Shown here: piece after piece, positions 47,585-64,000 of the stretch
Numbering within the stretch: position 1 is the first letter of the stretch
How the letters are laid out: every line of letters begins with the position of its first letter
Assembly (NCBI GenBank): GCA_028820635.1
Contig: JAPPIG010000084.1
Span: forward strand, 62,001-126,000
Length of the DNA: 64,000 bases
Source: Candidatus Poribacteria bacterium
GTDB taxonomy: Bacteria; Poribacteria; WGA-4E; WGA-3G
Direction of reading: 5' to 3'
Position numbers and translations under genes: made by a program
The notes under the pieces: generated by a model
Seen by the model: the letters and a program-made list of their open reading frames with translations, nothing else
Database searches by the model: none
What the model was told of the DNA's origin: nothing

Positions 47585-47616
47585 ATGTAACCTTTTTCTT
47601 TCATTTACATTCTTAC
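47585..47616 (+). promoter_or_regulatory. Conserved 32-base motif, putative ECF sigma promoter (copy A)
   Basis: ATGTAACCTTTT (47585-47596), six free bases, then ATTTACATTCTTAC (47603-47616). The copy at 51121-51152 has the same two boxes at the same distance (25 of 26 box positions identical). GTAACCTTTT resembles the -35 element used by many ECF sigma factors. It lies 76 bases before ATG 47693. Confidence 0.6.
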
Positions 47617-47692
47617 CTATTAAACCAAGTTCAATAGAGCAAATTAAACCGAAATCAAGTATTTTGCAAATAAGAAAATAGGAGACAATATC

Positions 47693-49018
47693 ATGAAAGG
47701 AAATAGTGCAGACTTATGGGAAGACTTTCTCCTCAAAAGTCAACGAGATGCAGACGGGAAGCGGAAAGTTGCAAAAGACATCCAGGAAAAGGTAATTACC
47801 TACATCAAAGCGAAAATTGATGCAGGTGTTTCTAACGGTAAAACGTCGCTTCCATCCGATTTGATGGAATACATCTACCGTTTTTCTAAAGAGATGCGTC
47901 AGGAACTGCGCGAATACGCTGAAAACGTTCTGGAAAAAAACCCCGATAACGGTGCAGCAGCAAAGTTTCTGGCGATAGAAACTTTACAAAAACTTGACGG
48001 AGAACCGATTCCGATAGAACCGAAGTATCCATATTTAGAAAAAGCGATGGTGTTAGTGCCAAAAGATGTTGAAATCTGTTTCTTCGCATTTGAAGAATAT
48101 GGATGTGATCAGTTTCTTCATGAGATGGAAGATTACGAAGATGACACACTTGTTTCTATTGAGAGATTGTTTGACCGTATCCATGAAAGGGACACACAGA
48201 CACAGTCCAGATGGGTGCGTATGCTTTATGACTATTCAGAGGTATGGACAAGTCCTACTGATATTTATAAAACACTCAACGAAAATGACCCTTATATTAA
48301 ACGGTGGACAGCAGTACTATGCAAAATTCAGAATGTCTTTGAACAAGAATTAGAACGAACACCCAATGATTGGGAGATTGTCCTCATACTGACTGAAATT
48401 CATGCGGTTTTAGGAAATACTGATGCAGCCGAAAAAGTTTTGAGGAAAGCACAAACGGTTTTTGAAAAACGTCTGGAACAAACTGAAAATGACCAAACTG
48501 CTTTGGATGGATTAGCAAATATCCATGAGAAATTAGGAAATGCCGAACTTGCCCAAGAATACAAGCTCAAAGCGGACCCCAGTTTAGGATGGGTAGATCA
48601 AATATTACCCAATTTTCCAGCATCTACAGTTGACCTTGATGACAACTCAATTTCGCTTGCAGATTACCGTGGAAAAGTTGTGCTACTTGATTTCTGGGCA
48701 GTGTGGTGCGGTCCCTGTGTCGGAGAAATTCCGAATATTAAGGAAGTATATGAGAAATATCACGACAAAGGATTTGATGTCATTGGCGTAAGTTTTGACA
48801 AAGACGAGGCAGTAGTGCGCGAGTTCATCAAGGAAAAAGAAATACCGTGGCGGCAGATTTTGGATAGTGGCGGTTTCAAAGGCATATTTGCAGAGCAATA
48901 TGGTGTCCGTGGTATTCCTGCACCGTTTCTGATTGACCGAAACGGAAAAGTTATCTCTGTTAAGGCAAGAGGTAGTCTTCTGGGTGAACTCGTTGCAGCA
49001 GAAATTGAGGATAAATAA
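47693..49018 (+). CDS. Cytosolic TPR-like plus thioredoxin (TlpA/ResA-like) protein, copy 1
   Basis: A 441-residue protein with AGGAGA before ATG 47693 and no signal peptide, so cytosolic, unlike most TlpA proteins. Residues 1-100 are a conserved N-domain (SADLWEDF, KTSLPSDLMEYIYRFSKEM, NPDNGAAAKFLAIETL). Residues 200-300 are TPR-like (NDWEIVLILTEIHAVLGNTDAAEKVL). From 300 on is an AhpC/TlpA-type thioredoxin fold: LPNFPASTVDLDDN, SLADYRGKVVLLDFWAVWCGPC with Cys339/Cys342, FDVIGVSFDKDE, GIPAPFLIDRNGKV. It should reduce disulfides or peroxide-type partners. The next gene is a close tandem duplicate. Confidence 0.88.
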   Translation: MKGNSADLWEDFLLKSQRDADGKRKVAKDIQEKVITYIKAKIDAGVSNGKTSLPSDLMEYIYRFSKEMRQELREYAENVLEKNPDNGAAAKFLAIETLQKLDGEPIPIEPKYPYLEKAMVLVPKDVEICFFAFEEYGCDQFLHEMEDYEDDTLVSIERLFDRIHERDTQTQSRWVRMLYDYSEVWTSPTDIYKTLNENDPYIKRWTAVLCKIQNVFEQELERTPNDWEIVLILTEIHAVLGNTDAAEKVLRKAQTVFEKRLEQTENDQTALDGLANIHEKLGNAELAQEYKLKADPSLGWVDQILPNFPASTVDLDDNSISLADYRGKVVLLDFWAVWCGPCVGEIPNIKEVYEKYHDKGFDVIGVSFDKDEAVVREFIKEKEIPWRQILDSGGFKGIFAEQYGVRGIPAPFLIDRNGKVISVKARGSLLGELVAAEIEDK

Positions 49019-49063
49019 GTTTAGAAAAAAACATTTTGCAAAAACAAAACATGGAGGAAAATC

Positions 49064-50383
49064 ATGAAAGAAAATAGTGTGGATGTATGGAATGACTATC
49101 TCAATACACTTGAAAATCGCGGGTATGCAAGCGTTGATTGGGAAGTGGCATCAGATGTTCAAGAAAAGTTAATAGAGTACTTCAAAGCGAAAATTGATGA
49201 AGGTGTTTCTGATGGGAAAACGTCGCTTCCACCCGATTTGATAGAGTACATCTATCGCTTTCCTAAAGAGATGCGGTGGGCACTGCGCGTTCATGCTGAG
49301 GGTGCTTTAGAAAGTGATCCGGACAATGGCGCGGCAGCAAAATTCTTGGCAATAGAGACATTACAGGTATTCGATGTGACAGTGCCTCTCAGTCGAAAAC
49401 GTCCGCTTGTGGAAAAAGCCATGATGCTGCTGTCAAAAGATGTTGAAATTTGTTTCTTTGCGTTCACAAAATATGGCTTCTGTGAAGACGAAGAAGTGCT
49501 CAAATCTCTGGAGAGAATGTTTGAGAGGCTACAAGAAACTTCTCAAGAGACACAATATAGGTGGGTATACCGGATACTCTACGACTATAGTGAAGTTTGG
49601 TTCAGACCAACTGACCTTTATGAAGGTTTTAAAACTGACGATCCACTCATTGAACGGTGGAATGTGGTGTTTAGCAGAATTCAAACTATCTTGGAAAAAC
49701 AGCTTGCGCAAAAACCGAACGATTGGAGTGCCTCACGGATGTTAACTGAGATTCACGAAACATTAGGAGATACTGATGCGGTGCGAGCAGTTCTTAAGGA
49801 AGCACAACCGGTTTTTGAGAAGATATTGGAGCAAGTACCAGATGATTGGACAGCTCTAAGCGCACTTGCTAATATCCATGAAAAGTTAGGAAATGCCGAA
49901 CTTTCCCGCCAATATCGGATAAAGCGAGATCCGACTTTAGCATGGGAGGAACAAATCTTGCCCGATTTTCCAGCGTCTACGGTTGACCTTGATGGTAACC
50001 CGATTTCGCTGATGGACTACCGTGGAAAAGTCGTGCTACTTGACTTTTGGGCAGTGTGGTGCGGTCCCTGTGTTGGGGAGATACCAAATGTTAAGGAAGT
50101 CTACGAAAAATATCACGACAAAGGATTTGATGTTATCGGCGTAAGTTTTGACAAAGACGAGGCAGTAGTGCGCGAGTTTATCAAGAAAGAAGATATACCG
50201 TGGCGGCAGATTTTGGATAGTGAAGGTTTCGGTGGCGTATTCGCGAAGCAGTATGGTGTGCGTGGTATTCCTGCACCGTTTCTGATTGACCGAAACGGAA
50301 AGGTTATCTCCGTTAAGGCAAGGAACCAGCTATTAGGGGAACTTGTTGCATCAGAGATTGAAGGTAAAAAAGAGGAAATATAG
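49064..50383 (+). CDS. Cytosolic TPR-like plus thioredoxin (TlpA/ResA-like) protein, copy 2
   Basis: A 439-residue tandem paralogue of the gene before it, 45 bases downstream, with GGAGG before ATG 49064. Same order: N-domain (SVDVWNDYLNTLENRG, KTSLPPDLIEYIYRFPKEM, DPDNGAAAKFLAIETL), TPR-like middle (NDWSASRMLTEIHETLGDTDAVRAVL), thioredoxin domain with WCGPC (Cys333/Cys336). The thioredoxin domains are far more alike than the middles, which suggests either recent conversion or strong selection on the redox part. Confidence 0.88.
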   Translation: MKENSVDVWNDYLNTLENRGYASVDWEVASDVQEKLIEYFKAKIDEGVSDGKTSLPPDLIEYIYRFPKEMRWALRVHAEGALESDPDNGAAAKFLAIETLQVFDVTVPLSRKRPLVEKAMMLLSKDVEICFFAFTKYGFCEDEEVLKSLERMFERLQETSQETQYRWVYRILYDYSEVWFRPTDLYEGFKTDDPLIERWNVVFSRIQTILEKQLAQKPNDWSASRMLTEIHETLGDTDAVRAVLKEAQPVFEKILEQVPDDWTALSALANIHEKLGNAELSRQYRIKRDPTLAWEEQILPDFPASTVDLDGNPISLMDYRGKVVLLDFWAVWCGPCVGEIPNVKEVYEKYHDKGFDVIGVSFDKDEAVVREFIKKEDIPWRQILDSEGFGGVFAKQYGVRGIPAPFLIDRNGKVISVKARNQLLGELVASEIEGKKEEI

Positions 50384-50484
50384 GTTTTTCTGTAGGCGAG
50401 CTTTGCAAGTGCGCCTGCTACGGGTATCCAAATAATTACGAGTTTTGCAATGAGAGTAGTGATGGAAATAGAGGGGCTGGTGGT

Positions 50485-51099
50485 ATGGATGAATTTCGCG
50501 ATGAGGAATTAGTACATCAAAATTTAGACGTTGCGGATGATGGAGCATTTGAAATCCTCTATCACCGTTACGAAGGGCCACTCCTCAGTTTTTTCTATAG
50601 GCGCGTTGGCAATTGGGAAACCGCGCAAGACCTGGTGCAAGAGACGTTTATTAAGGTGCATCAGAATCTACATACACTTCGGAATCCCAAAAGTTTTTCC
50701 AGTTGGTTGTTTAGCATCGCGCATCAACTCATTGCAGCACATTTCCGTGATGAGCAGAGAAAACTCGAAATCGGTTCACTTGAGGGGAATCCTGAAGCAT
50801 ATTTAGTAGACCTTGAACATCGTTCTCCAATCTATCGTATCATTGCAAAAGAGCAGATGGAAATTGTATATGCTTTGGCACAACGACTGCCAATTTCCGA
50901 ACAAGAAGTATTTGAAATGAAGCTGGCAAATCCCAAAATGTTGTTGGAAGAAATCGCTGAAAAATTGGAAATCACTTTGTCAGCGACTAAAGTTCGGTTG
51001 TACCGCGCAAAGAGAAAAGTTGTTGCTTGGATGAAAACGGAATATCCTGGTGAATTTGACCACATATTTAGAAAACAAGAGGAAACAAAAACGGGTTGA
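50485..51099 (+). CDS. ECF-type RNA polymerase sigma factor
   Basis: A 204-residue sigma factor. Region 2: DDGAFEILYHRYEGPLLSFFYRRV, ETAQDLVQETFIKVHQNL, FSSWLFSIAHQLIAAHFRDE. Region 4: ALAQRLPISEQEVFEMKLA, LLEEIAEKLEITLSATKVRLYRAKRKV. No anti-sigma gene lies next to it, no membrane segment is present, and the C-terminus has only a short basic/acidic tail. The conserved motif at 51121 begins 22 bases after its stop, so the operon behind it is a natural target. Confidence 0.93.
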   Translation: MDEFRDEELVHQNLDVADDGAFEILYHRYEGPLLSFFYRRVGNWETAQDLVQETFIKVHQNLHTLRNPKSFSSWLFSIAHQLIAAHFRDEQRKLEIGSLEGNPEAYLVDLEHRSPIYRIIAKEQMEIVYALAQRLPISEQEVFEMKLANPKMLLEEIAEKLEITLSATKVRLYRAKRKVVAWMKTEYPGEFDHIFRKQEETKTG

Positions 51100-51120
51100 A
51101 TTGTAAACAATACGAATTTT

Positions 51121-51152
51121 ATGTAACCTTTTGAGCCGATTTGCATTCTTAC
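51121..51152 (+). promoter_or_regulatory. Conserved 32-base motif, putative ECF sigma promoter (copy B)
   Basis: ATGTAACCTTTT (51121-51132), six free bases, ATTTGCATTCTTAC (51139-51152), matching copy A at 47585. Only 18 bases separate it from ATG 51171 (SD AAAGGAG at 51157-51163), so the leader would be very short if the right box is the -10; a protein-binding or leader role is the alternative. Confidence 0.55.
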
Positions 51153-51170
51153 ACTGAAAGGAGAACAAAA

Positions 51171-51881
51171 ATGACACCGACCGATGTCAAGGAATTGCTA
51201 AACACTTTAATCGCAGCAGAATGTCTCCCGATTGAGATTATTGATATTGCCCCTACTCAGAATCTACTCACATCAGATTCTACGACAGAGAATCGCATAA
51301 AAGATGTAATCCATCAATGGAACAAAGACGGTAAAATCTACACACGTCATCCTGGCCGATCAGATATTATGGAGTTCTATTCCAAAACCGATTCTGAATC
51401 TGCTGCTAAAGAATTGTTAGAATCTTTAGAAGTTGAAACTCTTATTGAATCCATCATCACTGAGCAGAATCTGCCCATCCGTTTTACAGATCACGGATTC
51501 CGATTGGTGGCATTAGCAGAGGATGACACAACGCGTTATCCTGTTAAAATACTTCACGGAGGATTTCGGTTAGAAAAGGGTCCGGAGACTGAGGTAAAAT
51601 CAAAGGATCTTGAAGGTGTCGCGGATCGCTTTGAAGCTATACTAAAGGAAAAGCGGACAAAGGCTAAATTGTTTCATCGCGGTTTTATGTTTGAAAGACA
51701 CTCCGATGTTGATGTCCCCACCACACGAATTAAAGAGATAGCAAAACAGATAGATGAAACCCTCGGCATCAACTATGTTTTTGATTCATGCAGTTACCCA
51801 CGTTCCAAAAAAGGGACATCCGAGACAACATGGACCAGTGCTAATATCCGAATTTCTTTGTGGCGGTTTCCACGGCGTTGA
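51171..51881 (+). CDS. H-x-G-F repeat family protein 1 (unrecognised)
   Basis: A 236-residue cytosolic protein; ATG 51171 follows AAAGGAGAAC. Not a family I know. It opens like its three neighbours (TDVKELLNTLIAAECLPIEII) and is built of alpha-beta-beta units: a helix with LxxLIxExxLP, then a strand pair around H-x-G-F: FTDHGFRLVAL, KILHGGFRLEKG, KLFHRGFMFERH. The last part (IKEIAKQIDETLGINYVFDS) also recurs in the neighbours. First and most diverged gene of the four-copy set, and the one directly behind the ECF motif. Confidence 0.75.
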   Translation: MTPTDVKELLNTLIAAECLPIEIIDIAPTQNLLTSDSTTENRIKDVIHQWNKDGKIYTRHPGRSDIMEFYSKTDSESAAKELLESLEVETLIESIITEQNLPIRFTDHGFRLVALAEDDTTRYPVKILHGGFRLEKGPETEVKSKDLEGVADRFEAILKEKRTKAKLFHRGFMFERHSDVDVPTTRIKEIAKQIDETLGINYVFDSCSYPRSKKGTSETTWTSANIRISLWRFPRR

Positions 51882-51940
51882 ATAGTCATAGAAAAAACTA
51901 AACTTAACTGCAACCTGATTCTACGATAGGAGGTTGAATT

Positions 51941-52795
51941 ATGAATCCCAATGATGTTAATAAATTATTGGAATCTTTAATTGAAGAGTTTGCCCTACCC
52001 GTTACCTTGTTCAACAGTGGACCTCTGATGATCAGCGAAGACGATGCTAAAGTTTCAAGGGAACGGCTTAAAGATACTGCAAAACAGTGGATGGATCTTG
52101 AGAGAGATGGATGCGACAAAATTCCGAAAGAGATGCAAGAATGCTACGCGCGCTTAAAAGAAGAGGTTGGTTTGTATAGAAATCATAGAAACCATAGTTT
52201 TTCTGTGAGAAAAAGCGAATCTGAACTTTGTGTTGAGATAGAACGTCTTGCTCTTGAAACATCTCATGTGCCAGATGTTAGAAAAGTATTGAAATCTTTG
52301 ATCGCAGAACAAGTATTGCCATTTGAGATTTTCCATCAAGGTTTTAATGTTATTATCCTCCCAAAAGACACGCAGAAATACCGGGACAAAGATATGAAAG
52401 AACTCGAAACATTACTTGAAAAAGAGAACTTAAGCGTGCAGGTACGCCACAGCGGTTTCAGTTTAACACGAATGGAACCAAGAGAATATGGCGAACCAGA
52501 TATCCAATTTCTACATGTTCAGGAACTATCGCAGCGTCTGCAGTCGGCACTGGAAACATACGAACTGAAGGTGTGTCTGCTTCATAAAGGTTTCGTGTTA
52601 GAGAAGCAACGGGAAGTTGAAATACATGTTTGCGAGACTGCAGAGTTAGCATCACGGCTAAGCTTTATGACAGGTATTGATTATCGTGGAGCAGGTGCGT
52701 ATGGTATGGGACTCCCAGAGAAAGATATTCCACCCGGATGGACACACAAAATTAATTGGAAGCATTCAAGGATAAGTGCATCCCGTCCATATTAA
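51941..52795 (+). CDS. H-x-G-F repeat family protein 2 (unrecognised)
   Basis: A 284-residue member of the same family; AGGAGG precedes ATG 51941. Units in order: NDVNKLLESLIEEFALPVTLF (H-x-G-F lost, SGP instead), a 70-residue charged linker, DVRKVLKSLIAEQVLPFEIF with FHQGFNVIIL, MKELETLLEKENLSVQVRHSGFSLTR, and LQSALETYELKVCLLHKGFVLEK, closed by ETAELASRLSFMTGIDYRG. No signal peptide, no cofactor motif, a few Cys not in pairs. Function unknown. Confidence 0.75.
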   Translation: MNPNDVNKLLESLIEEFALPVTLFNSGPLMISEDDAKVSRERLKDTAKQWMDLERDGCDKIPKEMQECYARLKEEVGLYRNHRNHSFSVRKSESELCVEIERLALETSHVPDVRKVLKSLIAEQVLPFEIFHQGFNVIILPKDTQKYRDKDMKELETLLEKENLSVQVRHSGFSLTRMEPREYGEPDIQFLHVQELSQRLQSALETYELKVCLLHKGFVLEKQREVEIHVCETAELASRLSFMTGIDYRGAGAYGMGLPEKDIPPGWTHKINWKHSRISASRPY

Positions 52796-52831
52796 TTCAG
52801 TTTGGTAACGCCCTACCAAAGGAGGAAAATG

Positions 52832-53575
52832 ATGAATCCGAATAAAGTTAAGGAATTACTCCACACTTTGATTGACGAACTCAAATTACCAATCCGTGTT
52901 TCTGTTTCTCATAGTGGACCTATATTGGTTTTCGGACCGGGAAGTGGTTCTATACGATCACGAGCAAAAAGTGTGTTAGAACGCTGGTCTGATGAAGGTA
53001 AGCGTAGTTGGGTCATTTCTGTAGGACTGCCTGTGAAAGAGAGGGATGAAGCAACAACGCGCCTTGCTTTGGACACACATCGCACGACAGAGATAAGGGA
53101 TATATTGGAATCATTGATCGCTGAACAAACACTCCCTTTGACCGTTGTTGATAGTGGTTTTCAATTGGAAATCCTAACTGATGAAGGGATAGACTATCGC
53201 AGTGAAGACATGATGCAGCTGGAAACGCTTTTAGAAAAAGAGGGTATAGATGTTCCAGTCCGGCATAGCGGTTTTAGTTTACGACACAAGGAAGATGATG
53301 TTGAACTTCTGTTTTCGGAAGTCAATACATTGGCAAATCATCTCACGTCTTTATTGGTAAGACACGGGTTACATGTGCGATTGCTCCATAATGGTTTTAG
53401 ACTGCTTAAAGATCAAGACGACGCAATAGATATTGCAGAAGTGAAGGAACTCACCTATCGATTAAAGATTATGGTAGGTATTCGCTATAAGCAAGACGGT
53501 TATAGTTATCCGCATGACGTGCCAAACCCTGAAATTCATTGGAAATCTGCTGACGTGAATACCGCCTTTCTATAA
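52832..53575 (+). CDS. H-x-G-F repeat family protein 3 (unrecognised)
   Basis: A 247-residue member; GGAGG (52821-52825) favours ATG 52832 (MNPNKV, as in protein 2) over ATG 52829. Units: VKELLHTLIDELKLPIRVSVSHSGP, TEIRDILESLIAEQTLPLTVV with VDSGFQLEIL, MMQLETLLEKEGIDVPVRHSGFSL, LTSLLVRHGLHVRLLHNGFRLLK, end VKELTYRLKIMVGIRYK. Closest to protein 2. Confidence 0.75.
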   Translation: MNPNKVKELLHTLIDELKLPIRVSVSHSGPILVFGPGSGSIRSRAKSVLERWSDEGKRSWVISVGLPVKERDEATTRLALDTHRTTEIRDILESLIAEQTLPLTVVDSGFQLEILTDEGIDYRSEDMMQLETLLEKEGIDVPVRHSGFSLRHKEDDVELLFSEVNTLANHLTSLLVRHGLHVRLLHNGFRLLKDQDDAIDIAEVKELTYRLKIMVGIRYKQDGYSYPHDVPNPEIHWKSADVNTAFL

Positions 53576-53591
53576 TTTTCAAATAAAACAT

Positions 53592-53615
53592 CGGATCAGC
53601 ATGTGTGTTGATCCG
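53592..53615. other. Hairpin between family proteins 3 and 4
   Basis: CGGATCAGCA (53592-53601) pairs with TGTTGATCCG (53606-53615) around TGTG, one G-T pair. No T run follows, so it may trim or pause rather than end the transcript. Confidence 0.4.
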
Positions 53616-53675
53616 TGCTGGCACACATAATAAACAAATTGTCCAGTTAAAAACACACGAAAAGGAGGATGAACC

Positions 53676-54476
53676 ATGAATCCTTATGATGTTCACGAAC
53701 TGCTGAGATCCATTATCCAAGAACATGTACTACCGATAACTGCTTACAACGGTACGATCCTATTGATTGTTGAGGGTGAATACCCAGGTAATATGTCAGA
53801 ACGATACTCAGAATTAGAACGATGCGTTGAAACAATAATACACCAGTGGAAAGGGGATAAAGGGGTAAGAGACTATAAAGACAGAATATTTCATGGAGAA
53901 TGGTATGCTACCGTTTTGTCCTCCTTTTCTGAAATACATAATAAAATAGAACGCGTTGCCTCAGATTCATCTCGTGTTTCAGAAGCAAGAGAGGTACTAC
54001 AATCCTTAATTGAAGAACGAGCACTGCCTATCAAAACCATTCAAAACCGTATTAAAGTCGTAATTCTTTCGGACAATCCTGTAGATTATCGGACTGAAGA
54101 AATGATGAAACTTGAGGACTTACTACAAAATATGGCACTTGACGGTTCATTAAAAGAAGACATTAAAAACATCTATGTTCGTCATAGTGGTTTCAGTTTA
54201 CACCCAAAGAAAGGAACTCCCGATATAGATTTCTCACAGGTTCAGGAGTTAACGAATTATTTGCAATCTGAAATAGTAGAACACGGACTGCATGTAAAAT
54301 TAATTCATAAGGGTTTTGAACTGGAAACAGACAATGAAATTGAATTAGATGAGAATGAAACTGAGGAAATAGTATACCGCTTAACGATTATGACAGGCAT
54401 CAACTTTCGGATTAGTGGATATGGAGAGAATACAACGGACTTAGGTGCAGACGGTGCCTATCCCTATTCCTATTAA
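53676..54476 (+). CDS. H-x-G-F repeat family protein 4 (unrecognised)
   Basis: A 266-residue member; AAAGGAGG precedes ATG 53676. Units: YDVHELLRSIIQEHVLPITAY, linker, EAREVLQSLIEERALPIKTI with IQNRIKVVIL (H-x-G-F degraded), MMKLEDLLQNM with a 10-residue insert before VRHSGFSLHP, and LQSEIVEHGLHVKLIHKGFELET, end TEEIVYRLTIMTGINFRISGY. It leads directly into the ferredoxin genes (31 bases). Confidence 0.75.
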   Translation: MNPYDVHELLRSIIQEHVLPITAYNGTILLIVEGEYPGNMSERYSELERCVETIIHQWKGDKGVRDYKDRIFHGEWYATVLSSFSEIHNKIERVASDSSRVSEAREVLQSLIEERALPIKTIQNRIKVVILSDNPVDYRTEEMMKLEDLLQNMALDGSLKEDIKNIYVRHSGFSLHPKKGTPDIDFSQVQELTNYLQSEIVEHGLHVKLIHKGFELETDNEIELDENETEEIVYRLTIMTGINFRISGYGENTTDLGADGAYPYSY

Positions 54477-54506
54477 TGGTAACAAACGCTATAAAAGGAA
54501 AACAAA

Positions 54507-54770
54507 ATGACATACGTAATTTGCGAACCCTGCATTGATGTAAAGGATCACGCTTGTGCTGAGATATGTCCCGTCGAATGTATTCACCCAATGCGTGATG
54601 AAAACCCAGATGAATTTGAAAAAGTAGATCAACTCTACATTGATCCCGAAGAATGTATTGATTGTGCTATATGCGAACCTGCATGTCCAGTTGAGGCTAT
54701 CTTCATAGAAGAGGATGTTCCAGAAGAATGGGAACATTACATACAAATAAATGCAGATTATTTCCAATAA
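54507..54770 (+). CDS. fdxA: FdxA-type 7Fe/8Fe ferredoxin, copy 1
   Basis: An 87-residue ferredoxin: MTYVICEPCIDVKDHAC, then EICPVECIHP, and the second cluster CIDCAICEPACPVEAIF. Cys9, Cys17 and the last Cys of the second motif fit the 3Fe-4S site; Cys21 with C-x2-C-x2-C fits the 4Fe-4S site, as in Azotobacter ferredoxin I. The loop between the clusters (MRDENPDEFEKVDQ) is a few residues longer than usual. The tail DVPEEWEHYIQINADYF is the family norm. First of three tandem copies. Confidence 0.9.
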   Translation: MTYVICEPCIDVKDHACAEICPVECIHPMRDENPDEFEKVDQLYIDPEECIDCAICEPACPVEAIFIEEDVPEEWEHYIQINADYFQ

Positions 54771-54823
54771 TAAAAAAATAATTGACAATATGTCGGAAAA
54801 TACACATAATAGGAGTAGAAAAA

Positions 54824-55105
54824 ATGACTTACGTAATTTGTGAGCCGTGCGTTGATGTAAAAGACAGTGTCTGTGTTGATATATGTCCCTGTGATTCCAT
54901 CCGCCCACATCCAACGGAGGAAGCCAAGGACTATGAAGGGGTAAATCAACTCTTCATTGACCCAGAAACATGCATCGAATGTGGTGTGTGTGAACCGGAA
55001 TGTCCCGTCGAAGCAATCTTTTTTGATGAGGATGTTCCCGAACAATGGAAACATTTCATAGAAATAAACGCTGATTATTTCAATAAACAACAACTTAATG
55101 TCTAA
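54824..55105 (+). CDS. fdxA: FdxA-type ferredoxin, copy 2 (altered Cys)
   Basis: A 93-residue ferredoxin; ATG 54824 follows AGGAGTAG and matches the N-terminus of the other copies (a start at 54782 would add 14 unrelated residues). Both clusters are kept (CVDVKDSVCVDIC; CIECGVCEPECPVEAIF), but where copies 1 and 3 read CPVxC, this one reads CPCDS: the free Cys is moved by two positions. The C-terminus has seven extra residues (NKQQLNV). Confidence 0.88.
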   Translation: MTYVICEPCVDVKDSVCVDICPCDSIRPHPTEEAKDYEGVNQLFIDPETCIECGVCEPECPVEAIFFDEDVPEQWKHFIEINADYFNKQQLNV

Positions 55106-55136: not shown

Positions 55137-55400
55137 ATGACGTATGTAATTTGCGAACCTTGCATAGACGAGAAAGACAGCTCCTGTGTTGATGTCTGTC
55201 CAGTAGATTGCATTCACCCACACCCAACAGATGCAGTTGATGATTTTGAAGAAGTAGATATGCTCTACATCGATCCGGAAGAATGCATCGATTGTGGTGT
55301 GTGTGAACCGGAATGTCCCGTCGAAGCAATTTTCATGGAAGAAGATGTTCCCGAAGAATGGGAACATTTCATTGAAATCAACGCTGCATATTTTGAGTAA
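55137..55400 (+). CDS. fdxA: FdxA-type ferredoxin, copy 3
   Basis: An 87-residue ferredoxin; ATG 55137 follows AAAGGAGA (an in-frame ATG at 55098 lies inside the end of copy 2). CIDEKDSSCVDVCPVDC and CIDCGVCEPECPVEAIF give the same cluster sets as copy 1. The stretch CIDCGVCEPECPVEAIF is shared almost exactly with copy 2 at DNA level, pointing to recent duplication. Last gene of the operon; a terminator-like structure follows. Confidence 0.9.
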   Translation: MTYVICEPCIDEKDSSCVDVCPVDCIHPHPTDAVDDFEEVDMLYIDPEECIDCGVCEPECPVEAIFMEEDVPEEWEHFIEINAAYFE

Positions 55401-55702: not shown

Positions 55703-58700
55703 ATGAAACACAACGATACCGAACTTATCCGACGTACCCTCACAGGCGATGATGACGCATTTTCAACGCTGGTGGAAAAATACCAGAAGCAGGTACACGC
55801 GCTTGCATGGCGGATTATCGGCGATTTTCATATTGCTGAGGAAATTACACAAGATTCATTCCTGAAAGCATATACGGGATTGAAGACTCTGAAGGAGCCA
55901 CAGCGTTTTGCTGGTTGGATGTCCGTAATTACAAGACGTCGATGCTTGGCGTGGCTGCGCAAAAAGCGTGTGTGGACAGAGTCCTATGAACATCTGGAAG
56001 AATCAGACAGTGAACAGATAGAAGAAACCGTGTATTCAGCGTATGTCGTTGAGGAAAGGGAACGAACATCAGCAGAAACACAGCGTTATGTTGTAAAAAA
56101 ATTACTCGCAAAGCTACAGGAGAGTGAACGCACTGTCATGACATTGCATTACTTCGGGGAAATGACATGTGCAGAGATCGGCGAGTTTTTAGGTGTATCG
56201 GCAAATACGATTAAGAGTCGGCTGCACCGCGCCCAACAGCGTTTGCGAAAGGAAGAACCCATCATAAGAGAGGCGTTAGATAATTTCAAAATTACACCGA
56301 ATCTCACGGAAAATATCATGCGCGAGATTTCACAAACAAAACCTGCTGCACCTTCTGCAAGTAAACCTTTCGTCCCCTGGTTATTCGCTGCTTCAACAGT
56401 TGTAGTCGTGTTGCTCATGTTAGGTTTTGGAAACAGCAAATACTTAACACATTTTCAGCAGCCCTATAGTTTTGATGCTAACTCGAAGATCAAGATTGAT
56501 ATTATTGAGGCACCTGTTATGGCAAACCTTGCGTTGAAATCGGATGAGCGGAGGCAATTGGGAAGTGCAAACGCGCAAAGCGAAAATCTTGTTCATAAAC
56601 AGAAACCTAACGATACACAGATATCTGCACAAGCAGGTGAGGAGAATAAAATGGAAAACTATCCACAGTGGAATCTGCCAAAAGAAGCAAAGGTCCGTTA
56701 TGGTAAAGGTGGAATGAGAAAAATTCAGTTTTCACCAGATGGCAAACAATTAGTGGTGGGTAGTAGTATCGGTGTCTGGGTTTACGATGTGGAAACTGGT
56801 AAGGAGATTTCATTCTTATCAGGTATGAGTGGCGCAATGGCATATTCCTCTGATGGGCGTTTCATTGCAACTGGTGGAGGAGATCCAATCACCAGTTTTG
56901 GTGGCAGTCCACTTGAAAAAGGAGTTAAGGTGTGGAACATAGACGCTGGGCATGAAGTTTCACTACAAAATGCATTACCTGCTGCAGTGCTGTTGCGATT
57001 CTCAAATGATAGTAAGACCCTTGTTTGTTTGAGTAAGTCAAGAGAAACAATTTATCGGGTGGATGTAGAGACTGGAGAGACGACATCGACAAATATGGAT
57101 AAAAGACCGGGACGCATGCATCAGGAAAGTTACGCACTTACAGAAGAAAAAATTGCTATTGCAAGCGGGGACGGAAAGATAGAGCTTTGGGACACAACAA
57201 CAAGTAAGAAATTATCCACGCTCCGGGAATTTGGGAAAGAATTCCGTTTGCCGCATTACATAACCAGAACTAACCATGCACTGATGTTGAAATTCTCACC
57301 AGACGGCACACGACTCGCAACTGGAAACTTGGATACGACGGTGGAGCTCTGGGACACATCCACAGGAGAAGAATTGATTGTCCTACAAAAGCCTATAGAA
57401 AAAAGTAATACGTGGATAGTGTCCATGCAAGATAATAAAGAAATAGTAATGAACCCGACGAAAAACGAAAGGAATGGTAGACCAAGTACACTGGCATTCT
57501 CACCAGACGGAAAATTACTTGCATGTGGTAGTAACGATAGCACTATAAAATTGTGGAATTCTGATACAGGTGAATTGCTTGCTACTTTTACAGGGCATCT
57601 CAGTAACGTAGGTTCTTTATCATTTTCACCAGATAGTAACATGCTTGCAAGCGGAAGCGCGGATGGCACTGTCCGACTCTGGGATATCAAGTCACGAAAA
57701 GCATTAAATACCCAAATTGCAGGACACATGTGGATGAGAACCGCATCATTTTTAAAGGATAGTTCCAAATTAGTGAGTGTGTCAGACACTGGTATAATTT
57801 CAGTTTGGGATTTGGAGAAATCAGAAAAAACAACTTCCATAACTAAAGCGATGCTTGAGGAACCATTATATTGGAGAACTTACAGAACTTTCGTATTATC
57901 GCCTGATGGAACAAAACTTGGTAATCACGGGACACAAAGCGATCCGTCTAAACCAAACTATAATCGCACGGTGCTACGTTTGACTGATGTTAACACAGGT
58001 AAGGATTTGGAGACTATTCACTATCCATATCTCGAAATATTTTCGCCAGATGGAAAAACCATAGCAAGTGGTGGTGGTAATAAAATCCGCTTGTTGGATA
58101 TAGAAACGGGTGAAAAACGTGAGATTATTACTTCAGAACACGATGAAGATTCCGATGAGCATAAACCTCATATCAGAACTGTCGCATTTTCGCCAGATGG
58201 AGAAACAATTATCAGTGGAACATCGGGTGGGCATGTTCAACTCTGGGATGTGAACACTGGCATGGAGTTAAGTTCATTTTTTCAGGAAATACCTCCAAAA
58301 GACAATAGGTACAGAGAACCTATTCAGCAATTTGCGTTCTCTTCAGACAGTTCTCTAATTGCTGTGGGAAGTACGAAACGGATCCGTATGATAGGTAGAG
58401 CGAAGATTCCCCACTTTAAAGAAATCGCAAAAGGTGATAAAAGTTTTTCTCATACATCTATATTTTCTCCGGATAATACTATTCTTATAGTTGGTTTCTG
58501 GGGTGGTAATATTGAATTATGGGATGTAAATACTGGAGAAATACTCACTACGCTTAATGGGCACTCAGTATCAGTGCAAAATCTTTCATTCTCACCTGAT
58601 AATAAAACTCTGATCAGTGTGGGGGGTGGTACCATTCTATTTTGGGATTGGGAAGAAGTGTTAAGTAGTGCACGCGGAAAGGATCAAGAACGTGGATCTA

Positions 58701-59875
58701 AAGTGGGTCTTTCCACTGAAGAACAAACCACAGAGAATGTGATACAATTCCTTGAGCACTCAACACAAAAACCAAAAATCTCGAATCATATCTTGACGAA
58801 AGGTGAGGTATATCTGGCAAACGAATGGTATGATGCGGCGTATGAAGAATTTACAAAATACTTCTCTGCTGCAGATTATTATAGAGAGGATCAGAATGTC
58901 ACTACACACCCAGGTTTTCATCGTCAGTTGTTTGCAAAAATTGGCAAAGTAGGCAAAGATGTTCAGGGCAAAGAAGGTTTCGCTGATATGGTGAATAAAT
59001 TAATTGACTTTTTCCCCGATAGCCAGAGTATCCAGTTAAATGGCCACCTGGTATTAGCAAAATTCTATCACGATAACGATATGCTTGAGAAGACAGATGA
59101 ACACATTCATAAAATTAACGATATAACTGAAAACCTTCCCACAGAAAGTATAAGTTTTCAGTTAAATGCCTGCCTCAGTCTGGTTGAATATTATCGTTAT
59201 AAAGAAATGTTTAACAAAGCAGATGCGTATATTCAAAAAATTGACGATATAACTGCTGAACTTGATACGAATAGTCCAGAAAGTCTGGCGCTTCAGTTAG
59301 ATACCCACTTTGCTTTGGCTGAGTTTTATCGTGATCATGATATGCTTGAGAAAGCAGATGAGCATATTAAAAAAACAGGTTTTGTTACTGAAGACGCCTG
59401 GATGGTGCTTGGTCCATTTGATAATGCTGGTGGAATAGGTTATAATACTGTCTACATTCCTGAAGACATCACAGAGATTGATTTGACAACAAAATATGAT
59501 GGACTGGACGGGCTGGTAAGTTGGAAAAAGTTTACCGATGACAAATTAGATGGTTATATCCATCTTGGAGAAAAGAATGTCGATTGGCAGGTCTCCTATG
59601 CCTTCGCTACCGTTATCTCTCCTGATGAACGGGAAGTCCAATTCAGATTCGATAGCGACGATCAAGGGAAAGTATGGCTAAATGGTGAAGAGGTATTCAC
59701 ACATACCAAAACTTTTATGGCAATAATTGATACATATACTATTCCTGTGACGCTTAAACCGGGCAAAAACAGTATTCTCGTTAAGGTGTGTAATGAGCAA
59801 GGGGCATGTGCTTTTTATATGCGTATCACAGACCCAAACGGACAACCGTTTGATGATTTGAAGTTCGGACAATAA
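55703..59875 (+). CDS. ECF sigma factor fused to a membrane helix, WD40 propellers, TPR-like repeats and a C-terminal jelly roll
   Basis: A 1390-residue fusion. Residues 1-95 are sigma region 2 (FSTLVEKYQKQVHALAWRII, EEITQDSFLKAYTGL, FAGWMSVITRRRCLAWLRKK) and 130-185 region 4 (LQESERTVMTLHYFGEMTCAEIGEFLGVSANTIKSRLHRA is the helix-turn-helix). A single membrane helix lies at 223-243 (WLFAASTVVVVLLMLGFG). After a polar linker, WNLPKEAKVRYGKG opens about 12 WD40 blades (to residue about 982). Three 41-residue TPR-like repeats (HDNDMLEKTDEHIHKI and similar) follow at 1110-1220, then a jelly roll (DDQGKVWLNGEEVFTH). ECF-WD40 fusions are known from Planctomycetes. The sigma end would be cytosolic and the propeller outside. 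Confidence 0.88.
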   Translation: MKHNDTELIRRTLTGDDDAFSTLVEKYQKQVHALAWRIIGDFHIAEEITQDSFLKAYTGLKTLKEPQRFAGWMSVITRRRCLAWLRKKRVWTESYEHLEESDSEQIEETVYSAYVVEERERTSAETQRYVVKKLLAKLQESERTVMTLHYFGEMTCAEIGEFLGVSANTIKSRLHRAQQRLRKEEPIIREALDNFKITPNLTENIMREISQTKPAAPSASKPFVPWLFAASTVVVVLLMLGFGNSKYLTHFQQPYSFDANSKIKIDIIEAPVMANLALKSDERRQLGSANAQSENLVHKQKPNDTQISAQAGEENKMENYPQWNLPKEAKVRYGKGGMRKIQFSPDGKQLVVGSSIGVWVYDVETGKEISFLSGMSGAMAYSSDGRFIATGGGDPITSFGGSPLEKGVKVWNIDAGHEVSLQNALPAAVLLRFSNDSKTLVCLSKSRETIYRVDVETGETTSTNMDKRPGRMHQESYALTEEKIAIASGDGKIELWDTTTSKKLSTLREFGKEFRLPHYITRTNHALMLKFSPDGTRLATGNLDTTVELWDTSTGEELIVLQKPIEKSNTWIVSMQDNKEIVMNPTKNERNGRPSTLAFSPDGKLLACGSNDSTIKLWNSDTGELLATFTGHLSNVGSLSFSPDSNMLASGSADGTVRLWDIKSRKALNTQIAGHMWMRTASFLKDSSKLVSVSDTGIISVWDLEKSEKTTSITKAMLEEPLYWRTYRTFVLSPDGTKLGNHGTQSDPSKPNYNRTVLRLTDVNTGKDLETIHYPYLEIFSPDGKTIASGGGNKIRLLDIETGEKREIITSEHDEDSDEHKPHIRTVAFSPDGETIISGTSGGHVQLWDVNTGMELSSFFQEIPPKDNRYREPIQQFAFSSDSSLIAVGSTKRIRMIGRAKIPHFKEIAKGDKSFSHTSIFSPDNTILIVGFWGGNIELWDVNTGEILTTLNGHSVSVQNLSFSPDNKTLISVGGGTILFWDWEEVLSSARGKDQERGSKVGLSTEEQTTENVIQFLEHSTQKPKISNHILTKGEVYLANEWYDAAYEEFTKYFSAADYYREDQNVTTHPGFHRQLFAKIGKVGKDVQGKEGFADMVNKLIDFFPDSQSIQLNGHLVLAKFYHDNDMLEKTDEHIHKINDITENLPTESISFQLNACLSLVEYYRYKEMFNKADAYIQKIDDITAELDTNSPESLALQLDTHFALAEFYRDHDMLEKADEHIKKTGFVTEDAWMVLGPFDNAGGIGYNTVYIPEDITEIDLTTKYDGLDGLVSWKKFTDDKLDGYIHLGEKNVDWQVSYAFATVISPDEREVQFRFDSDDQGKVWLNGEEVFTHTKTFMAIIDTYTIPVTLKPGKNSILVKVCNEQGACAFYMRITDPNGQPFDDLKFGQ
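56636..56653 (+). promoter_or_regulatory. Internal ribosome site and in-frame ATG in the sigma fusion
   Basis: GGTGAGGAGAATAAAATG ends in ATG 56651, in frame (codon 317), with GAGGAG about 6 bases upstream. Translation from here would give the propeller-TPR-jellyroll part without sigma domains and without the membrane helix. Confidence 0.35.
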
Positions 59876-59941
59876 TCTCTTTGAATACTCACTTCTCTAT
59901 GAAACCGGCGTACTATCCTATCTGCACGGTGAAGGAGAATA

Positions 59942-62398
59942 ATGATGAATAACAAATACGATTCCGCAGATTTCTGGTATACGTTCACCAACTCCCTACA
60001 TAACGAGGGACTCTCTTTTGGAAAAGGTGAATTGGAGATGGACGTGGAGACACAGGAGAAACTCCTCGGCTATCTGAAAGAAAAAATTGAGGAAGGTGTA
60101 AAGAATGGTGAAACTGCACTCCCTCCCGGTCTTCACGATTACATTTCCCGATTTCCGAAAGATATGTTATCAAAATTGCGAACATTAGCCGAAAGTTCTC
60201 TTGAAACGGACCCTAACAACACCGCAGCAGCGATACTTTTAGCAATCGTGGTATACGGAGAAAGTGATTCTGAATATGAATCGCATGTGGAAAAAGCGAT
60301 GATGTTAGCACCAAAAGATCCATGTATGAATTTACATCTGCTGCGTGCCAGGCACACACCTTCTGGTCGTGCACATGGAGAAGAAAGAGTACTCACGGCA
60401 CTGGAAAATTTATTTAAGTGGGCAAAGCAACAGGACGATTCTCCACGCTATCAAGAGGTGAAATCTTGCTATAAAATCCACAATATAACTCCATATTCAG
60501 TCTATAAGATGCTCAAATTTGGCCAATGGAAACACGTGCAAATCCCTCGCTCACCCTATGAGCAAGGCAGGAAAAGCCTCTATGATAATCCAGCCCTGTA
60601 CATATCGAGTGAAGGTCGATCTATCTCCATAGGACTTTCAGTGCCAGAGCAGATACAGAAGTGTCGCGCCTTGATATTCGAGGCACAGGCAGCATTTCAG
60701 AAAGAATTGGGGCAGGAATCGGATGATCAACAGGATTTAGGCAAGGCAACATCCGACAACACCGATTTTTGGGACGCGTATTTTAATTCGCTTGAGGACC
60801 GTGGACTTTCATTTTCAAGAAAAGGACTCACACAGAAAGACCAAGTTCAACTTCTGGAGTACTTCAAAACAAAGATTAAAGAAGGGGTTGTTGACGGTAA
60901 AACAACGCTGCCAGCACAACTTCAAGAGTACATACCATTTTTTCCTGAAGCGATACGGCTGGAACTCCGTGAATTCGCTGAAAAGGTGCTTGAAACGGAA
61001 CCAGACAACGGCGCGGCGGCAAATATGTTAGCAATCACTGTGTGGGAAGATGGATTCGCTTTTGGGATAGAAACAAATACCTCTCTTCTTCTCCTTGAAC
61101 AGGCGATGAAATTGGCCCCTAACGACCCAGAAACCTGTCTCTTTGCAATTAGTCTTTACTACGAATACTTAGATCCTTTGTCGGAACTGACGCTCATCGC
61201 ACTTGAAAGGTTGTTTGAAAGAGCAAAACAGCAATCTGAATCCGAGTTGTATTATTGGTTATGTAGGCTTTACCGGCAAGTTGGCAGAACTCCTTGCTAT
61301 GTCTATCGAAAACTGATGAAAAATCCCGATGGGAATGCCGAACTGATTGCGCGATGCCAACCCTTGTTGGCTGAAATGCAGCACGCTTTTGAACAGCAAC
61401 TTGCCATACAGCCAGATGACTGGTACGCTTTACGTGGACTCGGTGATATTTATGAAACGTTGGGTGAAACAGAATTAGCAAAAGAATATCCGTGGGCAGG
61501 TCAGACAAACTTAAAAACCAAATGGGCGCAGGCAGCGTGGGTTGGGCGACAACTGCCCAATTTTTCAGCGGTGTCACTTGATGGTACACCCATTTCGTTT
61601 TCTGACTACCGAGGAAAAATGGTACTCCTCAATTTCTCTACAAATGGGTGTGCCTCTGAAATTCCGTATATTAAAGAGGCATACAAGAACCATCACAAGG
61701 ATGGTTTTGAGGTCATCGGTGTGAGTCTTGGCGAAAACGAAGCGGAACTGCGAGAATTTATTAAGGAGCATGACATACCGTGGCCACAGATTTTCGATGG
61801 CAAAGGCTGGGATAGTGAACTTGCGCGATTCTTCTGTATTAATAGTGTGCCTTCACAGTGGCTCATTGACCGGGATGGGAAGATTCTCTCCCTCAGGACA
61901 AGAAGGGAGAAACTCGGACAACTTTTGAAGTGGACAGAGACTACGCGGGGTGGCAACATAGTGCCAGATTTTTCGGCTGTTGATGTAGAGGGTAACCAAG
62001 TTTCATTTTCAGCATACCACGGAAAAGTTGTGTTACTCTATTTTTGGTCACTGCATGGCTATGGCGATCAGGAAATAAGACATGTGAAAACGGTTCACCA
62101 AAAATACCATGACAAAGGTTTTGGATTTATCAATGTGAACGTTGAGGGATTCAATAGCGAAAGGGCGTTCCGTGAAAGTATCAGAAATCGGAACATGCCT
62201 GGACAACAAATTTATGACGGTCCCGGCGGTAGGTGGGACGGTCCACTTGCTCAACAATTTGGTATTCAAGATGTGCCTGCACTTGTGTTAATTGATACTG
62301 ATGGAAAAGTTATTGAGGCACGATACGGAAAAGTACATTCACCTGAAGCATGGGGTGCGAAATTGGAAAAACTTGTCGGCGCACATCTTAAGGGGTAA
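59942..62398 (+). CDS. Double N-domain, double thioredoxin-fold protein with lost CxxC
   Basis: An 818-residue protein, GAAGGAGA before ATG 59942, no signal peptide. The N-domain of the 47693/49064 proteins occurs twice (SADFWYTFTNSLHNEGLSF... and DNTDFWDAYFNSLEDRGLSF...). Two TlpA-like thioredoxin folds follow. In the first, the loop that reads FWAVWCGPCVGEIP in the active copies is FSTNGCASEIP, one Cys (570) left. In the second it is FWSLHGYGDQEI, no Cys. The surrounding strands are well kept (DYRGKMVLLNF, FEVIGVSLGENEAELREFIKEHDIPW; AYHGKVVLLYF), so the fold is maintained without dithiol chemistry. Binding or decoy function is more likely than catalysis. Confidence 0.85.
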   Translation: MMNNKYDSADFWYTFTNSLHNEGLSFGKGELEMDVETQEKLLGYLKEKIEEGVKNGETALPPGLHDYISRFPKDMLSKLRTLAESSLETDPNNTAAAILLAIVVYGESDSEYESHVEKAMMLAPKDPCMNLHLLRARHTPSGRAHGEERVLTALENLFKWAKQQDDSPRYQEVKSCYKIHNITPYSVYKMLKFGQWKHVQIPRSPYEQGRKSLYDNPALYISSEGRSISIGLSVPEQIQKCRALIFEAQAAFQKELGQESDDQQDLGKATSDNTDFWDAYFNSLEDRGLSFSRKGLTQKDQVQLLEYFKTKIKEGVVDGKTTLPAQLQEYIPFFPEAIRLELREFAEKVLETEPDNGAAANMLAITVWEDGFAFGIETNTSLLLLEQAMKLAPNDPETCLFAISLYYEYLDPLSELTLIALERLFERAKQQSESELYYWLCRLYRQVGRTPCYVYRKLMKNPDGNAELIARCQPLLAEMQHAFEQQLAIQPDDWYALRGLGDIYETLGETELAKEYPWAGQTNLKTKWAQAAWVGRQLPNFSAVSLDGTPISFSDYRGKMVLLNFSTNGCASEIPYIKEAYKNHHKDGFEVIGVSLGENEAELREFIKEHDIPWPQIFDGKGWDSELARFFCINSVPSQWLIDRDGKILSLRTRREKLGQLLKWTETTRGGNIVPDFSAVDVEGNQVSFSAYHGKVVLLYFWSLHGYGDQEIRHVKTVHQKYHDKGFGFINVNVEGFNSERAFRESIRNRNMPGQQIYDGPGGRWDGPLAQQFGIQDVPALVLIDTDGKVIEARYGKVHSPEAWGAKLEKLVGAHLKG

Positions 62399-62484
62399 TT
62401 TAAAACATCTTATAAGTAAATTGAGTTTTCACTTCAATCTGAAATTAACGTGCTTTCTTGTAAACAAAGTATAGGAGAACTATT

Positions 62485-64000
62485 ATGACCGATAAATACA
62501 ATTCCACAGATTTCTGGTATACCTTTATCAATTCACTCTATAACGAGGGGCTCTCAGCCGGAAAAGGTGAATTGGAAATGGATGAGGAGATGCAGGAAAA
62601 ACTTCTTGTTTATCTTAAAGAAAAGATTGAGGTAGGACTCACGAATGGACAAACAGCACTCCCTCCCGGTCTTCATAATTACTTTTGGCGTTTCACCGAG
62701 GAGATACTCCCTAAAATACAAACATTAGCAGATGGTTTTCTCAAAACAGATTCGGACAACAGCGCAGCATCCATAATTCTCACATTAGTAAAACGGGCAG
62801 ATTGGGAATCCCAACGACCATCTCTTTTAGATATTAATATGGAGTCAATTCCGAATGATCCGTGTATGAATTTAGCAATTATTGATGAGTACAGGAGTAG
62901 CCACGGTTGTTTTGGTGATTTCGAGAAACAAGGCATTATCCTCAAGGTACTTGAAAATCTGTATTCGTGGGGAAAACAACAAAACAATAACGTTCGTTAT
63001 CAGGAAGCAAGGTCATTTTATTGGGGACATAGGATAACCCCCTACACAGTCTATAAGCACCTTAAAGATAAACTCATGGATTTTAAGGAGGGCCTGGAAA
63101 ATCCTGAACGTTCGGAGCGGTGTAGAAATCAAATTGAAAAGTGTAACGCGTTGATTAAGAAGTGTAGAGATTTGGTTCCTATGGAAAATGCTGCATTCCA
63201 GAAAAATTTGGCACAACAATCGGAAGACCAAGAAGACTTAGTCAATGCAATGTCCGATAATACAGATATATGGGAAGCGTATCTGAAATCGCTTGAAGAC
63301 AGTCAAAATGCGCCGTCAAGAAGACTCACACAGAATGAACAAGAACATCTTCTGGAGTATTTGAAGACAAAAATTGAAGCAGGAGTTGTTGACGGACAAA
63401 CGAGATTGCCATTGCAACTCCCAGAATATATTCCAATTTTCCCTGAAGCGATGCTTTTGGAACTCCGTGAATTCGCTGAAGAAGTGCTCAAAACGCAGCC
63501 TGACAACGGTGCAGCAGCAAAGATGTTAGCAATCATTGTGAAGAAAAGTGAATCCCCGTTCCTTGAACAAGCAATAGAGTTGTTACCTAACGATACTGAA
63601 ATTTGCTATTTGGCAATTAAACGTTACAGTGAAAGTATCGGTAATCGTCATGACCCACTGTTTGAATTGACGCTTTCAGCACTTGAAGAATTGTTTGAAA
63701 GGGCACAACGGCAAGATGAATCCAAATTGTATCATTGGCTTATAAAACTCTACAACGAAATAGGTAGAACTCCATGTCATATCTATCGGAAACTGATGCA
63801 ACAACCAGAGGGGAATGCAGAACTGATAGAAAGGTGCCAACTTCTGATTAATCAAACGGAACAGTCATTTAAGCAACGCCTTGAAGAAGATGCTGACGAT
63901 TGGTACGCTTTACGCGGACTCGGGGATATTTATCAAACAATGGGTGATACCGAATTGGCAAGTAAATATCCGTGGAAGCCACATCCAGAATTTAGATGGA
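62485..64000 (+). CDS. Second double N-domain protein (3' partial)
   Basis: Open frame from ATG 62485 (AGGAGAAC upstream) to the window end, 505 codons without a stop. It begins MTDKYNSTDFWYTFINSLYN, nearly the same as the gene before it, repeats the N-domain near residue 260 (DNTDIWEAYLKSLEDSQN) and reaches the TPR-like stretch DDWYALRGLGDIYQTMGDT at the edge. By comparison with 59942-62398, the thioredoxin folds should follow beyond the window; whether they keep WCGPC cannot be seen. Third step in a row of tandem duplication. Confidence 0.85.
   Translation, partial: MTDKYNSTDFWYTFINSLYNEGLSAGKGELEMDEEMQEKLLVYLKEKIEVGLTNGQTALPPGLHNYFWRFTEEILPKIQTLADGFLKTDSDNSAASIILTLVKRADWESQRPSLLDINMESIPNDPCMNLAIIDEYRSSHGCFGDFEKQGIILKVLENLYSWGKQQNNNVRYQEARSFYWGHRITPYTVYKHLKDKLMDFKEGLENPERSERCRNQIEKCNALIKKCRDLVPMENAAFQKNLAQQSEDQEDLVNAMSDNTDIWEAYLKSLEDSQNAPSRRLTQNEQEHLLEYLKTKIEAGVVDGQTRLPLQLPEYIPIFPEAMLLELREFAEEVLKTQPDNGAAAKMLAIIVKKSESPFLEQAIELLPNDTEICYLAIKRYSESIGNRHDPLFELTLSALEELFERAQRQDESKLYHWLIKLYNEIGRTPCHIYRKLMQQPEGNAELIERCQLLINQTEQSFKQRLEEDADDWYALRGLGDIYQTMGDTELASKYPWKPHPEFRW

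Follow-up and report, generated by a model that had tools for sequence, protein, structure and literature searches.

Extracytoplasmic function (ECF) sigma factors typically regulate their own genes and use promoters with an AAC-type -35 element, and those of the SigR and SigH type are likewise autoregulated, from an element that differs from the TGTAAC-N16-CATTCT pair described below. In the available excerpts of the papers on the thiol-stress systems SigR-RsrA and SigH-RshA (PMC4960319, PMC3961337, PMC3489674), a cytosolic ECF sigma factor is linked to a thioredoxin system. Here we describe a cluster that shares this linkage, in a 64,000-nucleotide stretch of DNA from a Candidatus Poribacteria bacterium (the window; positions 62001-126000 of a 399-kb contig, JAPPIG010000084.1, in a 5.97-Mb genome of 136 contigs). 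The cluster contains a soluble sigma factor, tandem paralogues of an unnamed protein family (U), tandem ferredoxins and thioredoxin-type proteins, and is probably a dedicated, autoregulated ECF-sigma regulon of cytosolic electron carriers. Compared with SigR-RsrA and SigH-RshA, it has an array of ferredoxins and no zinc-binding anti-sigma factor (ZAS) among the matches listed.

The cluster also resembles ECF58, a group of ECF sigma factors without a cognate anti-sigma factor, in its soluble ECF sigma factor, in having no recognisable anti-sigma factor and in its iron-sulfur neighbours; the neighbour with an iron-sulfur binding domain is represented by ferredoxins, which lie downstream in 25 of the 26 loci compared. 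DUF3470, a further trait of ECF58 neighbours, had no match at E<=0.1 in the three ferredoxins of the window or in the polyferredoxin, and the U array and thioredoxins are additions with respect to ECF58, the comparison being one of gene neighbourhood. ECF57 sigma factors carry WD40-like extensions according to excerpts of PMC8999054, and a 1390-amino-acid (aa) protein of the cluster likewise joins a sigma domain to a WD40-like C-terminal extension; likened to ECF57 by architecture only, it differs in having a transmembrane (TM) segment as well and in being a variable neighbour rather than a core regulator. Finally, ferredoxin 1, the only one of the three scanned, is similar to FdxA (NCBIfam NF045480, NF045490) over nearly its full length and in its Cys pattern, and lies below both equivalog cut-offs (91.6 of 125 and 69.9 of 135 bits); the cluster ferredoxins differ from FdxA in that an insert separates the two groups of Cys, in a further Cys at position 6 and in their tandem arrangement. 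The cluster may be regarded as a variant form of the ECF regulon, one that includes a protein family as yet unnamed. Among papers on Poribacteria with sigma factors, ferredoxin, WD40 or ECF, no title or opening of an abstract treated this cluster, and the words "sigma", "thioredoxin" and "ferredoxin" are absent from the main text, as far as available, of the 2014 single-cell genome paper (PMC3909097).

The features of the cluster are as follows.

47586-47615, + strand: promoter-like element 1, TGTAACCTT-N13-CATTCTTA (TGTAAC-N16-CATTCT), exact match; first gene 77 bp downstream
47693-49018, + strand: protein with N-domain/TPR and a TlpA-ResA-like thioredoxin domain, WCGPC; no signal peptide seen
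49064-50383, + strand: second TPR/WCGPC thioredoxin copy, from profile matches
50485-51099, + strand: ECF sigma factor (SIG), soluble, 204 aa, from domain profiles
51122-51151, + strand: promoter-like element 2; U1 start codon 19 bp downstream
51171-51881, + strand: U1, the sigma-adjacent member of an unnamed alpha-beta-beta repeat family
51941-52795, + strand: U2, U-family paralogue
52829-53575, + strand: U3, U-family paralogue, with AlphaFold2 model
53676-54476, + strand: U4, U-family paralogue
54507-54770, + strand: FdxA-type ferredoxin 1
54827-55105, + strand: FdxA-type ferredoxin 2
55140-55400, + strand: FdxA-type ferredoxin 3
55703-59875, + strand: fusion of sigma domain, TM segment, WD40 propeller and C-terminal domain, 1390 aa; variable add-on
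59942-62398, + strand: first double-layout protein, two N-domains and two thioredoxin folds; no CxxC
62485-64000, continuing to 64872 past the window, + strand: second double-layout protein, WCGPC in the first thioredoxin fold
64902-65360, outside the window: four-cluster polyferredoxin

An earlier note on this DNA had named these gene classes, the polyferredoxin apart, in this order on one strand, and all of them are present as described on the + strand. Its single-strand cluster stands, while its extent of 16 kb was too short: the last gene it listed runs to 64872 and the polyferredoxin is added, so that the cluster spans 47693-65360 (about 17.7 kb) and passes the window end.

To place the cluster among its relatives, the window proteins were mapped onto 25 further loci (L041-L065, apparently from genomes G001 onwards, which means that locus-level and genome-level counts are not independent). 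All 25 U-family loci, drawn from a named genome collection, belong to Candidatus Poribacteria. The order of sigma factor, U1, zero to eight more U paralogues and one to three FdxA-type ferredoxins, all on one strand, is kept in 26 of 26 loci; U1 served as the query and is present by construction, and the presence of the sigma factor is not. Ferredoxins occur in all loci except L054, where the contig ends after U, and L065 is a decayed version of the cluster. Neighbouring core genes mostly lie no more than 250 bp apart. TPR-thioredoxins, double proteins and the sigma-WD40 protein were found in 15, six and seven of the 26 loci, respectively (the contigs of L047, L054 and L062 stop no more than ~750 bp past the final core gene), and because these members vary between loci we take the core to be sigma-U-ferredoxin. 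The earlier note held that scattering of the families in relatives would undo its reading; the core order is kept and not scattered. It is thus very improbable that unrelated redox genes merely came to lie together by accident: variable membership of the thioredoxins, double proteins and sigma-WD40 protein is what neutral neighbours would display, but for the core this explanation is contradicted by the conserved order, the shared element and the unlinked double-thioredoxin genes that carry the element.

Of 84 genomes from the phylum, 36 were found to carry the U family, only in two genera of one family, the same two genera that hold the N-domain common to the thioredoxin and double proteins. 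Among the 56 genomes of that family, 32 have both U and the N-domain, 3 have U only, 6 the N-domain only and 15 neither (Fisher p = 1.7e-6, a statistic which ignores shared descent). Conserved order, promoter-like element and co-occurrence in two genera put the cluster beyond chance.

The promoter-like element, TGTAACCTT-N13-CATTCTTA, emerged from an alignment of the DNA upstream of the sigma gene and occupies two places in most loci. In the 5.97-Mb genome there are two exact copies of TGTAAC-N16-CATTCT, both in the cluster, where they flank the sigma gene. The element ends 18-23 bp before the start codon in 25 of 26 U1 genes (22 exact copies, one with one mismatch and two with two mismatches); the exception is L058, with the element ~680 bp upstream. 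The 26 starts leave out the U1 fragment of L065, and the second U1 copy of L041 has an element of its own. Before the first gene an automatic rule placed the element in 22 of 26 loci; in L049, L057, L064 and L065 the site lies slightly inside the stop-to-stop frame or further out. The element is asymmetric, a pair of hexamers with a fixed 16-bp spacer just upstream of the U1 ribosome-binding site, and has what may be read as the shape of an ECF promoter (-35/-10 pair). A scan with promoter and terminator consensus sequences gave no signal above shuffle level. Two sets of matches in the own genome were discarded: those at the three-mismatch level, which are background (26 in all versus 30 for the reversed control), and a one-mismatch site on contig C113 between glnA and dcd, oriented away from glnA.

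At no more than one mismatch, the 84 phylum genomes hold 84 sites in 38 genomes, versus 2 for the reversed pattern. These include 35 of the 36 U-bearing genomes, the remaining one (G011) having a two-mismatch version in L062, and three U-less genomes: G067, where the sigma gene is present on a cut contig, G065, where the site lies inside an opposite-strand frame, and G069. The sites at G067:C349 and G069:C43 are near-identical, each with one mismatch. A search for SIG orthologues (E<=1e-40) in 22 chosen genomes found the gene whole in the U carriers G009, G034 and G081 and in U-less G067, whose contig ends directly after it; it is truncated in G073, beside U1 and thioredoxin remnants and with a weak second match in the same genome, and absent at this threshold from the other 17, all U-less and including the one-contig genomes G023, G082 and G083. 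As a side observation, the G073 stretch (L108) has thioredoxin, SIG and U1 truncated next to an intact ferredoxin frame, and the cluster there seems to be decaying. Since the genome has 79 Sigma70_r2 matches, the element might instead be the operator or promoter of some other regulator or ECF sigma factor, with the linked sigma factor acting on other targets. We regard this as rather unlikely in view of the co-occurrence of element and U across the 84 genomes and of the sigma factor with both in the 22 searched, and in view of the element's asymmetry, its fixed spacer as in a -35/-10 pair and its position before the U1 ribosome-binding site.

In relatives, twelve stretches surrounding element sites that were odd or lay off the cluster were examined. 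In four genomes the element precedes an unlinked double-thioredoxin gene of 811-819 aa (exact in G007, one mismatch each in G005, G015 and G016), at ~80-90 bp from element end to gene in three of them and ~400 bp in G016; these sites weigh most, as a gene class of the cluster keeps the same element where it is located elsewhere. In G007, a one-mismatch site lies ~105 bp upstream of a TTG-start frame that matches Mrp/ApbC iron-sulfur carriers (PF10609, 350 bits against a cut-off of 27; NF041136, 327 bits, below the cut-off of 450). The redox or Fe-S character that the earlier note had given the cluster gains from both gene types, the double-thioredoxin and the Mrp/ApbC-type carrier. Exact sites also occur upstream of WD40-like genes in G001 (~330 bp) and G030 (~256 bp). 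In G005 (exact) and G015 (one mismatch), the element precedes a small gene whose match to the CHC2 zinc finger is weak, the scores of 18.1 and 21.8 bits being below the 24.9-bit cut-off; these zinc-finger-like genes lie at 1684-2122 of L094 and 1467-1908 of L099. The G005 copy (L094) also has a recognisable leader and initial codons from the sigma gene, so this appears to be a duplication of the promoter. No fitting gene was found at the L100 and L103 sites.

The soluble 204-aa sigma factor is itself the most likely regulator. Both region 2 and region 4 score above cut-off in this short protein, as expected of an ECF sigma factor (Sigma70_r2 65.6 bits, cut-off 24; Sigma70_r4_2 26.3, cut-off 25.7; TIGR02937 75.4, cut-off 42.9). 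Mean column identity is 80% among the 21 sequences of the sigma alignment (A5, 21 of 26 sigma factors), with no invariant Cys, and no anti-sigma domain was found among the Pfam and NCBIfam matches listed for the cluster proteins (best 25 of 66 for the 1390-aa protein); therefore sensing must come from elsewhere. The earlier note had proposed a redox or Fe-S stress system with a membrane-tethered sensor-regulator of its own. A redox or Fe-S system with its own regulator agrees with the soluble ECF sigma factor in the conserved core; the stress role, with co-expression of the genes, gains no support here, and neither does the membrane tether: the tethered sigma-propeller protein occurs in seven of 26 loci (three others being cut short), against 26 of 26 for the soluble sigma factor. 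A stress system sensed and regulated by the sigma-WD40 protein is accordingly quite unlikely. The fusion is real, with a hydrophobic peak at residues 222-242 and a WD40 match of 188.7 bits (cut-off 27), it adjoins the core where present, and in G001 the WD40-like gene that has an exact element 330 bp upstream is itself followed by a sigma-WD40-type gene. It was not seen, however, in 19 loci, of which L047, L054 and L062 end early, its gene has no element of its own in the window, and 42 of the 79 Sigma70_r2 matches of the genome lie in similarly long open frames (at least 700 aa, counted by length), so that nothing sets such a fusion apart in this genome. Five long sigma frames on contigs C49 and C125 of G000 are paired with equal scores and lengths, which suggests a duplicated or redundantly assembled stretch. 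The single phage-defence match (PADLOC), in which the WD40 stretch hit a HEAT-ARM model, was rejected.

We propose that the soluble sigma factor (50485-51099) would bind RNA polymerase and recognise TGTAAC-N16-CATTCT. The element 1 promoter would drive a thioredoxin-sigma transcript, amounting to positive autoregulation, and the element 2 promoter, between sigma and U1, would drive the U array and ferredoxins, probably at a higher dose than the sigma factor; in some relatives the same promoter would drive the unlinked double-thioredoxin, Mrp/ApbC-type, zinc-finger and WD40-like genes. The output would be reducing power together with Fe-S or electron-transfer capacity. Control is presumably cytosolic, and U1 is the leading candidate for a partner that is anti-sigma-like or co-regulates, because it adjoins the sigma gene in a conserved order, usually has its own element and has no TM segment; U2-U4 would be amplified relatives, acting as partners of ferredoxins or thioredoxins. 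If true, this would provide a testable regulon (sigma factor, promoter and targets), an ECF module without recognisable anti-sigma factor and a protein family that has no known relatives, in a phylum of which we know of no cultured member.

Several observations weigh against this proposal. That the sigma factor, rather than another regulator, uses the element is inferred from linkage and co-occurrence, and the genomes are related, which means that the counts are not independent events. Thirty of the 36 U-bearing genomes have no off-cluster site (at no more than one mismatch) that can be assigned to a gene, and the regulon may in most genomes consist of this operon only. In the window, neither the sigma-propeller gene nor the genes of the two double proteins have an element of their own, so their co-regulation here would need read-through. 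The core is interrupted by sigma-U1 gaps of 760 bp in L058 and 885 bp in L059 and by a 1111-bp U1-ferredoxin gap in L062, and these gaps hold small open reading frames (ORFs) of up to 179 aa. Finally, three U-bearing genomes are without the N-domain and six U-less genomes have it.

The U proteins of the window are divergent, with 28, 29 and 25% identity to U1 for U2, U3 and U4, respectively, and number one to nine ORFs per locus, fragments included; L041 (G001:C22) has an array of nine, including its second U1. Alignments A2, A3 and A4 hold 26, 43 and 46 of the 75 U ORFs and omit five U fragments, with L043:13287-14201 also omitted from A3 and A4. Searches of Pfam, NCBIfam, PHROGs and PADLOC gave no match past cut-off for the U family, the best E-values against PDB sequences were 0.15 and 0.24, and tblastn against plasmids and phages, with U3 as the sole query, found no match. 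Over 46 members Pfam gave scattered weak matches (Mnd1 in nine, TraI_middle in six, PSP1 in four, best E 3.7e-4), and no family passed cut-off in ten rechecked members; PSP1 matches in these ten covered 36-50 residues, did not exceed 19.0 of 27 bits and were treated as chance, the member with the E 3.7e-4 match not being among them. The AlphaFold2 model of U3 (pLDDT 91.9, pTM 0.84) consists of successive helix-hairpin (alpha-beta-beta) units, and that of U1 (pLDDT 77.0) has a similar architecture with weaker stretches. In segment profile comparisons, units 1-2, 2-3 and 3-4 matched with probabilities of 97.6, 95.0 and 95.5 and units 2-4 with 91.4, in support of internal repeats; 1-3 was weaker (74.5), 1-4 unsupported (8.7) and unit 5 reached at most 44.9. 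Fold searches returned no confident match in PDB (U3, U1), VIA (U3) or viral structures (U3), which does not prove a new fold; a partial, weak similarity to the ferredoxin-like plait was not used as evidence of function. Cys is absent from seven of the 75 U ORFs (fragments included), making a Cys-ligated cluster an unlikely common function.

What the U proteins do bears on how the sigma factor would be controlled. They might be effectors that bind a metal, cofactor or nucleic acid, with sigma activity set only by its own transcription, and to this we would give a substantial chance, somewhat under even. Tandem amplification to as many as nine ORFs fits the dose of an effector better than a regulator, and the HxGF turns, which hold some of the most conserved residues, could be ligand sites, to which the weak ferredoxin-like-plait matches may be added; on the other hand, U1 is a distinct sigma-adjacent type that nearly always has its own element, and the fold matches are weak. 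The sigma factor could be controlled through transcription of its gene only, as excerpts of PMC8999054 describe for other ECF sigma factors. The U proteins could also be a new class of cytosolic sigma regulators, U1 holding the sigma factor and the tandem paralogues, variable in copy number, competing with it or titrating it while binding ferredoxins or thioredoxins. We think this unlikely; were it true, the redox state of the carrier pool would set sigma activity and U copy number would tune the set-point in each species.

Among the ferredoxins of the proposed regulon, eight Cys columns are kept in 60 of 60 ORFs scoring above 100 bits, a pattern which we take to be that of 7Fe ferredoxins; alignment A6 holds 12 of these 60. 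ORFs below 100 bits were not counted; some of these are short, weakly matching ORFs within the U arrays of L041 and L043, where frames at 9685-9918 and 14176-14491, respectively (49-53 bits), are possibly remnants of ferredoxin genes. At E<=1e-35, 16 of 18 U-less genomes have one FdxA-type ferredoxin, G019 has two and G010 (73% complete) has none, and in those looked at the gene neighbourhood is different. At this threshold, no FdxA-type ferredoxin was found outside the cluster in 13 of the 17 U-bearing genomes of genus g1, the exceptions (G001, G007, G011 and G017) having one each, and in genus g2 14 of the 15 U-bearing genomes searched have such a gene outside it, with the reservation that incomplete assemblies may hide copies. 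In one genus, then, the supply of FdxA-type ferredoxin seems to lie wholly within the cluster in most genomes searched, and this speaks against a stress system that is accessory only.

The thioredoxin domain of the first TPR protein (PF08534, 91.6 bits, cut-off 26.6) has WCGPC and so combines the Redoxin/AhpC-TSA domain and CxxC of TlpA/ResA proteins. Thioredoxins of the TlpA/ResA type are exported or membrane-anchored, whereas the TPR/WCGPC proteins of the window have no hydrophobic N-terminus as judged by hydropathy, which bears out the earlier description of them as lacking signal peptides. The two thioredoxin-fold proteins of double layout proved to consist, as that name implied, of two N-domains and two thioredoxin folds. 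In the first (59942-62398) CxxC is lost from both folds, unlike the ten other double proteins checked, each of which keeps exactly one CxxC.

Downstream of the cluster, purA, rpsI and rplM follow its last gene, the polyferredoxin, on the opposite strand. Upstream, at 42545-47251 on the - strand, divergent neighbours encode a large secreted-type protein, two related small proteins and another unknown protein, and homologues of these neighbours adjoin many of the relative loci.

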